Source: Planctomycetales bacterium 10988
GTDB lineage: Bacteria > Planctomycetota > Planctomycetia > Pirellulales > Pb10988
Direction: 5' to 3'
Assembly (NCBI GenBank): GCA_009664345.1
Contig: CP043547.1
Location: 4,802,709-4,866,708 of the forward strand
Length of the DNA stretch: 64,000 nucleotides
The position numbers and the translations under genes are program-made. Positions 13,344-21,384 of the stretch are shown here, piece after piece. Position 1 is the stretch's first letter. Each line of letters begins with the position of its first letter. The notes under the pieces are model-generated. The model was not told where the DNA came from. It ran no database searches and saw only the letters and a list, made by a program, of their open reading frames with translations.

Positions 13344-13445
13344 GCATCCCCATCCTGCCAAAATGACAGCCTTCGCCGAAAGCGGAGGCGAAATTGAATC
13401 AGGGGACGCCTGCGATAGGAGTAGGTGGGATCGAAACTTAAGTTT

Positions 13446-13606
13446 CAGGGTTCGGATTTCAGGTTCAACGATTCATTTCGAAAGTGGATTAGGTTCTGAC
13501 GGTGTCCATATAACTTTATGAGATATTGAAAGCCAAATAAAATTCCATCTTACCGTTAAGGTCAACCTCCGAGCCCTGAACCCTGAACCCCGAAACCTGA
13601 ACCCTA
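13446..13606. repeat. Telomere-like CCCTGAA/GGGTTCAGG repeat cluster
   Basis: Short units related to TTCAGGGTTCGG appear on one strand at 13444-13469. The opposite orientation (CCCTGAACCCTGAACCCCG and further units) appears at 13573-13606. A similar patch occurs at 21174-21207. The units are imperfect and lie only in non-coding DNA. Confidence 0.6.
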
Positions 13607-15542: not shown

Positions 15543-16595
15543 TTAGCTCGCTTGTTTTCGCGGATTCGTGGTTCCCGTCAGTCGTTGGACTTGTCGAGTT
15601 AAGTCCTTGAGTTGTCTTCGCATTTCCGGCAGTTTTTGGAAGTTCGCCAGCGAGAGCATTTGCTCACGGATCGGCGTGGCGGGCGTTCCCACGTATTGCG
15701 TTCCCGGCGGAATATCGGTCATAACGCCGGAGGAAGCCCCAATCACGGCGGCTTGTCCGATGTGAACGTGATCGCGAATCCCGACTTGCCCGGCCAAAAC
15801 GACATAATCCCCGGTGCTGGTACTTCCGGCGATGCCGACCTGCCCGCAGATCAAATTGTGCTTGCCGATCTTGCAATTGTGGGCGATCATCACCAGGTTA
15901 TCGATCTTCGATCCTTCCCCAATCACGGTGGCTCCGTACGTCGCCCGATCAATGGTCACCGAAGAGCCGATCTCTACGTCGTCGTGAATTTCGACCCAAC
16001 CAAGTTGCGGAATGAGCTGATGCTTGCCGTCCTTCATCTCATAGCCAAAGCCGTAGGCCCCGATGATCGAACCGCCATGAATCAGGCATCGCTTGCCGAT
16101 TTGAATCTCATCGTAAAGGACCACATTGGCGAAGAGTTCCGTTCCTGCCCCGATTCGACAGCCATCCCCGACGACGACGCCGGGATGCAAGACGACATTC
16201 TCTTCGATTACGACTTCTTCCCCGATGGTGACCGAGGGATAAATCGTGACGTTCTCGCCGATCTTGGCTGTTTTGGAAATCTTCGCCTCGGAAGAAATCC
16301 CACGGTACGAACGCTTCCGGACGGGATGAAAAATCTGATAAATTTCGCTGAAAGCTTTTTGAACGTGTTCGACCTGAATCATCGGCCGAGGGTCGTCAGA
16401 AGTGAAATCAGCCGGCACCAAAAACGCCGCCGCCTCGGACGAGGCCAGCTTATCCGCATGCTGGGGATTGTCTAAAAAGGAGATCGCCTGAGGATGGGCA
16501 TCTTTGAGCGGGAGAGCATCACAAATCAACAACGTTTCGCAGCCAACCAATTGGCCACCAAGACGTTGGGCAAGTTCGGATAACGTTTTCGACAT
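15543..16595 (-). CDS. lpxD: UDP-3-O-acylglucosamine N-acyltransferase LpxD
   Basis: LpxD adds the N-linked hydroxyacyl chain in the third step of lipid A synthesis, using acyl-ACP. An N-terminal uridine-binding domain (1-100) precedes a left-handed beta-helix of hexapeptide repeats (about 105-310) of the form IGENVTIYPSVTIGEEVVIEE. The catalytic His lies in VMIAHNCKIGKHN. A short C-terminal helix ends the protein; the length of 350 aa is normal. It is followed by lpxI. Acyl specificity cannot be read from the sequence. Confidence 0.96.
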   Translation of the reverse strand: MSKTLSELAQRLGGQLVGCETLLICDALPLKDAHPQAISFLDNPQHADKLASSEAAAFLVPADFTSDDPRPMIQVEHVQKAFSEIYQIFHPVRKRSYRGISSEAKISKTAKIGENVTIYPSVTIGEEVVIEENVVLHPGVVVGDGCRIGAGTELFANVVLYDEIQIGKRCLIHGGSIIGAYGFGYEMKDGKHQLIPQLGWVEIHDDVEIGSSVTIDRATYGATVIGEGSKIDNLVMIAHNCKIGKHNLICGQVGIAGSTSTGDYVVLAGQVGIRDHVHIGQAAVIGASSGVMTDIPPGTQYVGTPATPIREQMLSLANFQKLPEMRRQLKDLTRQVQRLTGTTNPRKQAS

Positions 16596-16711: not shown

Positions 16712-16734
16712 GTAGGAAAGGGGCGAGAGGCGAG
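16712..16734. repeat. Left inverted repeat flanking the four-helix-bundle gene
   Basis: GGGGCGAGAGGCGAG within this segment is repeated in inverted form at 17419-17433 on the other side of the S23-like gene, and GGAAAGGGGCGAG recurs inverted at 17444-17456. See the matching right repeat. Confidence 0.55.
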
Positions 16735-16870
16735 CGTTGGTGGTGGGAATCTATTGAGGATGGTAAACGGATTTGTATTTTTAGAAATTTGGTTGAAAGG
16801 GAACCAGGGATAAATATATTAAGTAGCGTTAAGTTGTATTCGAGATTAAAGGATAAGGAAGGAAGAAACA

Positions 16871-17245
16871 GTGAAGCCGCAGTACTATCGGGAATTGATT
16901 GTGTGGCAGAAGGGGATGCTGTTGGCAAAGCAATGTTATCAATTGACGAAAAACTTCCCGATGAACGAGCAATTTGGGATGACAAGCCAAATTCGCCGGG
17001 CAGCTGCTTCAATCCCGGCCAATATTGCAGAAGGGAATGCCAGGAGCCACACCAAAGAATATTTAAAGCATTTAAGCATCGCCAGAGGATCGTTAGCCGA
17101 ATTGGAAACCCACTTAATCCTCTGCAATGAGGTTGAACTATTAGGCGAAGATTCCCTCAAAACCTGCCTTGTCCTCAGCGATGAAATCAATCGAATGCTC
17201 GCTGCTTTACGAAAATCCTTGGAACGACGTTTAGATAGTAAATAA
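16871..17245 (+). CDS. Four-helix bundle protein (S23 / 23S rRNA intervening-sequence protein family)
   Basis: The 124-aa protein matches the IVP/S23 family: YRELIVWQKGMLLAKQCYQLTKNFP, then QIRRAAASIPANIAEG, YLKHLSIARGSLAELETHL. These small helical bundles were first found in inserts of 23S rRNA genes and also act as accessory factors (Avd-like) of diversity-generating retroelements; most genomic copies have no known role. The start is GTG, with an AAGGAAGG ribosome site 7 nt upstream. It is a solitary gene between lpxD and pheS, flanked by inverted GGGGCGAGAGGCGAG-type repeats, which suggests an inserted unit. No reverse transcriptase or 23S gene is nearby. Confidence 0.85.
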   Translation: MKPQYYRELIVWQKGMLLAKQCYQLTKNFPMNEQFGMTSQIRRAAASIPANIAEGNARSHTKEYLKHLSIARGSLAELETHLILCNEVELLGEDSLKTCLVLSDEINRMLAALRKSLERRLDSK

Positions 17246-17418
17246 TCGGATAGTTTTCCAAATCTATATTGGTTCGGACATTCACGTCCCCTGTCTCTTT
17301 TGTCTCTTTTTTATTTCTATTTAACACCGCCTAAGATACCTACCTTCTATTCCCTCTCAACTAAAACTCCAAAATTACTAACCAATTTTCCGTTCACGAC
17401 ATATTTTCACCATCGGTA

Positions 17419-17463
17419 CTCGCCTCTCGCCCCTACTCGACCCCTCGCCCCTTTCCTGCTACC
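17419..17463. repeat. Right inverted repeat flanking the four-helix-bundle gene
   Basis: CTCGCCTCTCGCCCCT (17419-17434) is the reverse complement of the left repeat, followed by an extra ACTCGACCC stretch and a second partial copy (TCGCCCCTTTCCT, 17444-17456). The right side thus looks like a partly duplicated version of the left one. Confidence 0.55.
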
Positions 17464-17512: not shown

Positions 17513-18535
17513 ATGTCCGAGGCACTGGATCAATATATTAACGACCTGCAAACCTTGGCGGAGGATGCGAAAAAGGCCTTCGAAAGTGCAAAGCAAAAGG
17601 AAGACCTAGAAGCCCACCGTGTGGAATTTATGGGTGCCAAAAACGGCCATCTCAAGCGTTTGCAAAAGGGAATCGGCAAGGTCGAAAAGGACGAAAAACG
17701 GGCCGCTGGCCAGAAGTTCAATGAAGTCAAGCAGGCCGTTGAGCAATCCTTTCAAACCGCTCAAGATCGGTTGGCGAATCTCTCGGCGAGTGAGCAAGTC
17801 GGGCCTCGCTTCGATCCGACGCTGCCGGGAACCAAGCGGCCCATCGGTCGCAATCATCCTTTGACACAAACGGTGGAAGAACTCAAACGGACGATGGCCC
17901 GGCTTGGTTTCGAAGTCGCCCACGGTCCGGAAATCGAAGATGAATGGCACAATTTCGATGCCTTGAACATTCCTGCCTCGCACCCCGCCCGGCATCCGGA
18001 TGAAAATTTTTACTTGGCGAATCTGACACAAAAAGGGCATCCACTTCTGTGGCGAAGTCAAACAAGCACCGTGCAAATTCGTGTTATGGAAAAGCGAACG
18101 CCTCCGGTGCGGATCATTTCGCTCGGCCGTGTTTATCGTCCTGACAAACCTGACGCTACCCACTTTCCCATGTTTCACCAGATTGAAGGGCTGATGGTCG
18201 ATCGTGGGGTCACAATGGCTCACTTGAAAACGACCTTGCGACTCTTCGCCACGAGCTTGCTTGGAGAAGATGTTCACATTCGTTTTCGTCCTTCCTTCTT
18301 CCCGTTCACCGAACCGAGTGTGGAAGTAGATATGAGTTGGCAAGGTGGTTGGCTCGAAATGGGCGGGGCTGGCATGGTCGACCCAAATGTATTGAAGGCC
18401 GTCGGTTACGACCCGGACGAAGTCTCCGGCTTCGCCTTTGGGTTGGGCGTCGAACGGATTTGCATGCGTCGCCACAATGTAGAAGACATTCGATCCTTCT
18501 TTGAAAACGATGTCCGCTTCCTCCATCAATTTTAA
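17513..18535 (+). CDS. pheS: Phenylalanine--tRNA ligase alpha subunit
   Basis: This is the catalytic subunit of the alpha2-beta2 synthetase that charges tRNA-Phe. An N-terminal coiled coil (about 1-85) binds tRNA. The class II core carries motif 2 ([18 protein letters not shown]) and motif 3 ([13 protein letters not shown]). The length of 340 aa is normal. The frame is open from 17300, but ATG 17513 gives the family N-terminus ([13 protein letters not shown]) and has GGAG at 17501-17504. pheT follows after a 174-nt AT-rich spacer, larger than usual. Confidence 0.97.
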
Positions 18536-21164: not shown

Positions 21165-21173
21165 GGGGGAATT

Positions 21174-21334
21174 TAGGTTTCGGGGTTCGGGTTTCAGGGT
21201 TCAGGAATCGGCGGGGTTTCACCGAATCCATTTCAACGTCTATCTTTATTTATAAAAAGTGCTTTTTGTATTTAATTCTAAATCGTGATCACTCCCAATA
21301 CCGAACACTGAAAACCGAACACCGAACACGCTTC
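21174..21334. repeat. Second patch of GGGTTCAGG-type and CCGAACAC repeats
   Basis: The spacer holds GGTTTCGGGGTTCGGGTTTC and further units (21176-21207) like those near 13450. After it come CCGAACAC units at 21300-21330 and an AAAAAGTGCTTTTT element at 21254-21267. No coding frame is convincing. Confidence 0.55.
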
Positions 21335-21384
21335 GTTTCCCTGGTGTTTGTGAAACCTCTTCGGAAAGGGTTTCACCACCACTA

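Follow-up and report, generated by a model that had tools for sequence, protein, structure and literature searches.

A four-helix-bundle (S23) gene between inverted short-repeat arrays, read as one copy of a candidate family of small bacterial mobile elements

The window analysed here, a stretch of 64,000 nucleotides from the genome of Planctomycetales bacterium 10988, holds a unit that we read, with a probability of about 0.6, as one copy of a family of small mobile elements (about 0.4-0.75 kb) in which inverted arrays of short repeats, with a period that is usually 7, enclose a single four-helix-bundle (4HB)/S23 gene, and the 4HB protein would serve as a specificity factor in trans. Most of the doubt attaches to the mechanism. 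The 4HB family is spread over many bacterial phyla, and its mobility is well supported, the evidence coming from relatives of the window copy.

The unit (Table 1) lies between two genes named from their translations, lpxD, which starts at 16595 on the minus strand, and pheS, which starts at 17513 on the plus strand, and this agrees with the location given in an earlier note made from the sequence alone. The same note had recognised a four-helix-bundle, S23-like gene, and profile scores bear this out: the protein reaches 130.6 bits with PF05635 (cut-off 33.8), 123.8 with TIGR02436 (cut-off 24) and 143.9 with NF008911, and its scores above the curated cut-offs together with its four-helix-bundle fold place it in PF05635/TIGR02436. 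Its pI is 9.1, the family median being 6.9 and many members not basic, and no match to it was found in phages. No transposase, nuclease or polymerase was found among the ORFs read within the unit.

The inverted repeats reported on either side of the gene proved to be beyond chance. GGGGCGAGAGGCGAG at 16720-16734 (+) has an inverted copy at 17419-17433 with the S23 gene in between, and the local inverted match at the gene, with a score of 16, was reached in 1 of 5000 Markov-randomised flanks and, in a cross-phylum sample, by 0.3% of controls taken at other positions of the same loci. The partial duplication described on the right was also found, as a second block, CCCCTCGCCCCTTTCCT (17441-17457), that pairs with 16714-16730 at 94%. 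The extent of the repeats had been understated: the arms run from the arrays to the ORF and are about 145-150 bp each. Positions 16719-16871 match the reverse complement of 17291-17434 at 102 of 141 aligned positions (72%), a similarity attained in 0/2000 randomisations, and the part of these repeats that lies inside the arrays, tested alone, likewise gave 0/2000. The outer portion of the ~145 bp repeats is an array of GGGGCGA-like units, and RNA spanning the unit is predicted to fold from one end to the other with the ORF enclosed (z = -3.6 against 20 shuffles).

Table 1. Features of the window, further 4HB copies in the same genome, and plasmid sites found both with and without an element
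Feature	Location	Strand	Remarks
S23/four-helix-bundle (4HB) gene (23S_rRNA_IVP, TIGR02436)	16871..17245	+	124 aa; GTG start, with AAGGAAGGAAG before it
Left terminal array AGGAAAGGGGCGAGAGGCGAG, GGGGCGA-type units	16714..16734	+	G-rich strand inward; inverted match to both right-hand blocks
Full left terminal inverted repeat, imperfect, array to ORF start	16719..16871	+	Gapped alignment
Full right terminal inverted repeat, imperfect	17291..17434	-	Gapped alignment
Right terminal array, two blocks: CTCGCCTCTCGCCCCT (17419-17434) and CCCCTCGCCCCTTTCCT (17441-17457)	17419..17457	-	
Gene-less inverted pair, candidate mini-element	13441..13606		Heptamer-like AAGTTTCAGGGTTCGGATTTCAGGTTC ... GAGCCCTGAACCCTGAACCCCGAAACCTGAACCCT; inversion judged by eye
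Second gene-less pair, candidate mini-element	21172..21329		TTAGGTTTCGGGGTTCGGGTTTCAGGGTTCAGG ... ACCGAACACTGAAAACCGAACACCGAACAC; right arm similar to L012 arms
4HB copy L009			GGGGAGT-like ends
4HB copy L010			Long GGGAATA array at one end, degenerate units at the other
4HB copy L012			GTGTTCGGT-like ends inside a longer inverted repeat of ~100 bp
Filled/empty pair integrase|hyp	Nostoc/Calothrix plasmids related to one another		Flanks 88-96% identical
Filled/empty pair traM-like|hyp	Cyanobacterial plasmids		Flanks 93-96%
Filled/empty pair hyp2|hyp3	Cyanobacterial plasmids		Flanks 91-96%; ~35 extra bases after right arm
Filled/empty pair hyp1|hyp2	Cyanobacterial plasmids		Flanks 90-93%
Filled/empty pair nrdB|nrdA	Cyanobacterial plasmids		Flanks 85%

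A PF05635 search returned three further intact 4HB copies in the genome, each in a different gene neighbourhood and each also with inverted repeat ends, the motif being different in every one. The search for other copies with the same ends, which the earlier note had suggested as a check, was thus negative, as no two of the genome's four copies share their terminal repeats. By the note's own rule, ends without similarity would have counted against the idea; this rule would wrongly discard it, because what is conserved is the architecture and not the end sequence. Of the small mobile S23 element that the note had pictured, what stands is a free unit outside rRNA, with terminal inverted repeats and of a kind that is mobile, as judged from filled and empty plasmid sites and from a genome with two copies whose flanks are unrelated; identical ends in other copies do not. 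The 1.5 kb upstream of pheS yielded no lpxD in order-level relatives, Planctomycetales bacterium 10988 being the only member of its own family among the genomes compared.

The window 15-mer GGGGCGAGAGGCGAG has one further exact occurrence in the 6.65 Mb genome and ten one-mismatch places; no 4HB-family gene was found at these further places, and several of them read as gene-less pairs. Strict period-7 arrays number six in 464 kb of the genome, under a tandem criterion that degenerate arrays would escape, and two of the six are in the window (13571-13597 and 21307-21329), both with inverted mates on reading the sequence. Dispersed inverted pairs are fewer in this genome than in Xanthomonas. A CCCTGG(C/T)(A/G)TT(C/T)GTG-like sequence found beside TGTTCGG-type repeats at L012, at window positions 21320-21360 and at another locus, L008, may be a further dispersed repeat.

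A 4HB gene was found in 151 of 294 planctomycete genomes, with up to 15 matches per genome. When the 300 bases upstream of each gene were compared with the reverse complement of the 300 downstream, an arm score of at least 14 was obtained in 76% of 74 loci from many phyla, compared with 1.9% for mispaired flanks, 0.4% for positional controls and 7% for direct orientation. In a planctomycete-heavy set of 166 copies the corresponding values were 53% and 0.7% (mispaired), so about half of this set lies below the threshold, and some copies are without any arms. As the score thresholds were set after a first look at the data, the control rates weigh more than the exact percentages. A chance origin of the arm matches was set aside by the mispaired, positional and randomisation controls.

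The matched arm has a median length of 27 nt, or about four units, and a period of 7: identity at lags of 7, 14 and 21 is 0.54, 0.51 and 0.47, against about 0.28 at other lags. A minority of arms have periods of 8 and 9, and the inward strand is G-rich. The motifs are highly diverse (AGTGGTT, GGCAGTA, AGGGAAT, GTACATC and GAACACA among others); each is specific to its copy and usually unlike those of other copies, yet matches at both ends of the one copy, and similarity between proteins has a weak positive relation to similarity between motifs (r = 0.15, 1/300 permutations). G-quadruplex function was set aside as the sole account because many motifs, such as AGTTTTT and GAACACA, are without G runs. 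The 4HB protein is under purifying selection, with dN/dS mostly 0.01-0.18 where tested and 0.09 for two copies within one genome; one very close pair gave 0.32, on six changes.

Evidence of movement comes from cyanobacterial plasmids, in which the same junctions occur both filled and empty (Table 1). The inserts consist of array, 4HB gene and array only, roughly from arm to arm, and it is the arrays that form the ends of what was inserted. The traM-like site exists in a third state, a gene-less derivative in Nostoc ATCC 53789 (L379). In genome G011 two copies (L014 and L207) are 88% identical over 452 bp, arm to arm, and have unrelated flanks. Insertions are often at operon junctions, and several sites have lost from a few to ~40 bases of target. 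No clear target-site duplication was seen at the junctions read, short ambiguous repeats (ATG, TTCTA) being present at two sites; some of these junctions and neighbours were read by eye from the sequence. At two sites one element is 99.1-99.5% identical in diverged plasmid backbones with flanks of 84-95%, which suggests either repeated arrival at one junction or exchange confined to the element.

At the traM-like 4HB junction, Nostoc C057 p057_H (L380) carries a different gene-less insert with inverted AATTCAA-type repeats, suggesting that this junction is a hot spot. The Cas6|cas4 junction of Anabaena 90 was rejected as a filled/empty pair, a 99%-identical relative having an unrelated insert there. 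Between cas6 and cas4 on plasmid pANA02 of Anabaena sp. 90 (L386), the left array, upstream of the 4HB gene, has expanded to several hundred bases in which GGTGACA and GGGAACA units are interleaved.

It could be that the 4HB unit is a passenger, moved by the enzyme of another element (an IS, a Y1/RAYT transposase or a reverse transcriptase), with the 4HB protein having an unrelated or a helping role, though we regard this as unlikely. In Calothrix PCC 7103 (L182-L188) the 4HB gene adjoins a transposase-like ORF, called ISL3-like by eye, in a larger unit present as five near-identical and two diverged copies, and in Nostoc HK-01 (L385) it adjoins an annotated ISL3-family (IS204/IS1001/IS1096/IS1165) transposase; across the 294 planctomycete genomes, 4HB presence is associated with Y1_Tnp (odds 4.5) and with RVT_1 (odds 2.8). 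That association may, however, just reflect genomes rich in mobile DNA, and the plasmid inserts hold nothing but the 4HB gene and its arms. Moreover, Y1_Tnp has no match in the Planctomycetales bacterium 10988 genome, genome G012 has 14 4HB matches and no reverse transcriptase match, and neither enzyme was found in 15 of the 151 4HB-positive genomes, several of which are incomplete assemblies. The Calothrix PCC 7103 copies were dropped as proof of transposition, because the duplicated unit is larger and holds the transposase-like ORF; no Rfam match was found in three Calothrix loci.

The AlphaFold model of the window protein (pLDDT 95, pTM 0.88) gave as top Foldseek hits 2GSC (XCC0516) and 2RLD (BT_0352), both S23/23S_rRNA_IVP/TIGR02436 proteins of the same family and fold, followed by the Avd proteins of diversity-generating retroelements (DGRs; 4DWL and 8UB*). 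XCC0516 forms a ring of five, and the role of Avd is to assist the reverse transcriptase of its retroelement. Avd shares the fold of the window protein (Foldseek TM-score to the query mostly 0.73-0.78), but no DGR parts were seen at the window locus: the Avd equivalog model scores 32.7 bits against a cut-off of 80, and no reverse transcriptase was found among the ORFs read around the gene. The likeness to a component of DGR ribonucleoproteins nevertheless raises the possibility of a retroelement logic, in which the element RNA would form a long hairpin with the ORF in its loop, the Avd-like protein would hold it and a reverse transcriptase in trans would copy it into the target. The predicted end-to-end fold of the RNA, seven RVT_1 matches in the Planctomycetales bacterium 10988 genome, the small target losses without clear duplication, and same-site copies more alike than their flanks are all consistent with such a scheme. 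We nonetheless consider it improbable, given the Avd-specific score below cut-off and the 51 of 151 4HB-positive genomes in which no reverse transcriptase was found.

Among known elements, the 23S rRNA intervening sequences (Coxiella IVS, PMC4990558) likewise have an S23 ORF within complementary termini that form a long stem, and have long been suspected of mobility. The window unit resembles them in its ~145 bp imperfect inverted repeat and its predicted RNA fold with the ORF in the loop, but it lies between lpxD and pheS rather than inside a 23S rRNA gene; members of the family occupy operon junctions, plasmid genes and the gaps between protein genes, and their ends are mostly 7-nt tandem arrays. 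With REPIN-RAYT systems (PMC3116915, PMC2817692) the family shares a gene with inverted repeats, matching ends, often vertical retention and, in Xanthomonas, many dispersed non-autonomous inverted pairs. It differs in that the candidate trans factor is a four-helix bundle and not a Y1 (HUH) nuclease, of which the genome has no match as noted above, and in that the ends are tandem arrays of short repeats. An insertion sequence or MITE of a DDE transposase does not fit, there being no transposase ORF in the unit and no clear target duplication at the junctions read.

Derivatives that lack the gene but keep matching arms are scattered through genomes, among them those of Xanthomonas and of Planctomycetales bacterium 10988. 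At carA|carB a 4HB element with GGGGACC/GGGACCC arms is present in four Xanthomonas species; the junction was of no use as an empty-site test, since species without the 4HB gene carry other small ORFs there. In four Xanthomonas genomes, 20 places were read as carrying gene-less GGGGACC arrays, nearly all of which form inverted pairs, and dozens of matches to family-A arms are distant from any 4HB gene. At a locus designated B there are two main alleles, one with an RLEAW protein and GGGAATC arms and the other with an RLTVW protein and GGGATTC arms. By alignment the crystallised XCC0516 (2GSC) belongs to the locus-B family and is of the RLEAW kind, so that it is itself part of a Xanthomonas element with GGGAATC arms. 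The long-lasting presence of a 4HB gene at one site in many species, as at carA|carB and locus B, is what a domesticated gene would show.

Two gene-less pairs lie inside purL, and at both positions a pair is present in 30/30 Xanthomonas species aligned. This ruled out purL as an empty-site test and instead revealed motif switching: three motif types occur among the pairs, and the two arms of a pair generally agree in type. The type at one purL site, whose arms are unlinked to locus B, follows the locus-B allele (13:0 vs 2:10, p = 2e-5, by a statistic that ignores phylogeny), and the proportion of GGGATTC among a genome's arrays follows it too (medians 0.15 vs 0.35, p = 5e-4, phylogeny again ignored). 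On these sequence comparisons the arm motif in Xanthomonas tracks the resident 4HB allele, and recombination of alleles between species could produce part of the pattern. A few genomes break the match of allele and motif, and genomes G360 and G369 have arrays without a detected 4HB gene. The motif types at the two purL positions (L292-L321), which are a few hundred bases apart, vary independently between species.

Arrays of this kind have been described before. In Rehm et al. (PMC4692102), Xcc is credited with 186 arrays, including 70 cases of two nearby arrays in convergent orientation, the Xanthomonas GGGAATC and Nostoc GGGGA(C/T)T arrays are treated as G-quadruplex simple repeats, and no connection with a 4HB gene was found there. 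These, together with cyanobacterial STRRs, are the same arrays that we identify here as the ends of 4HB elements and of their gene-less relatives. A non-mobile host gene for RNA processing or regulation, flanked by hairpins or terminators whose heptamers were made by slippage and kept alike through hairpin template switching, would accord with the strong purifying selection on the protein, its persistence in xanthomonads at locus B and carA|carB, the purL sites, fixed in position, at which the two arms change in concert, and the generic heptamer arrays known from Xanthomonas and Nostoc (PMC4692102), but is highly unlikely in view of the filled and empty plasmid sites with arm-to-arm inserts, the second copy with unrelated flanks in one genome and the many unrelated integration sites. 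The empty sites contradict it for the family, and individual copies are possibly domesticated.

If the unit is a mobile element, as we favour, its 4HB protein, an Avd-related oligomer, may bind the arrays, perhaps with one repeat unit per subunit, which we infer from co-variation. The binding target would be a hairpin formed by the DNA or RNA of the element. As a trans-acting specificity factor, the protein would mark this hairpin and recruit a host or resident enzyme, whose copying, single-strand or coupled to replication or repair, would supply the DNA chemistry. One arm might template the other through the same hairpin, so that the two ends would stay alike while motifs drift. The 23S rRNA intervening sequences would then be relatives that landed in rRNA and are tolerable there through excision by RNase III. 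Against this explanation stand the content of the unit, which offers no nuclease, transposase or polymerase for the chemistry, and, as regards the proposed binding, the many family proteins that are not basic. Carriage in trans, which the earlier note had proposed, is plausible for the gene-less derivatives that are numerous in Xanthomonas.

More tentatively, bacteria at large may harbour minimal mobile elements whose sole gene encodes an Avd-like 4HB protein without a known catalytic role, and whose array motif, though nearly free, is faithfully reproduced at the two ends of a copy and, in trans, in gene-less relatives across the genome; this would amount to a system for array writing or homing, each subunit of a ring protein reading a single repeat. 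Such a system, if real, would jointly explain the heptamer repeats of Xanthomonas and cyanobacteria and the origin of 23S rRNA intervening sequences. It would join three loose ends that are separate in the literature found, namely the S23/4HB family, the cyanobacterial and Xanthomonas heptamers and the disputed mobile origin of the 23S rRNA inserts. The S23/4HB family has had a crystal structure since 2006 and, to our knowledge, no assigned function. In the literature found, its members appear as hypothetical or rRNA-insert proteins and are connected neither with heptamer arrays at the ends nor with scattered copies that lack the gene, and a search of open-access literature returned no publication linking heptamer arrays to a 4HB/S23 gene. 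On this reading, a very widespread kind of bacterial mobile DNA would have been overlooked because its ends share no sequence between copies. The question raised is how terminal repeats can change freely and yet agree with each other and, genome-wide, with the protein.

In three planctomycete copies (L013, L015 and L027, in genomes G217, G070 and G049) the 4HB element lies inside a long ORF, presumably of a type III Mod-like methyltransferase (judged by eye), that is open throughout in another frame, which gives this DNA two readable frames, and the 4HB frame is conserved there too.
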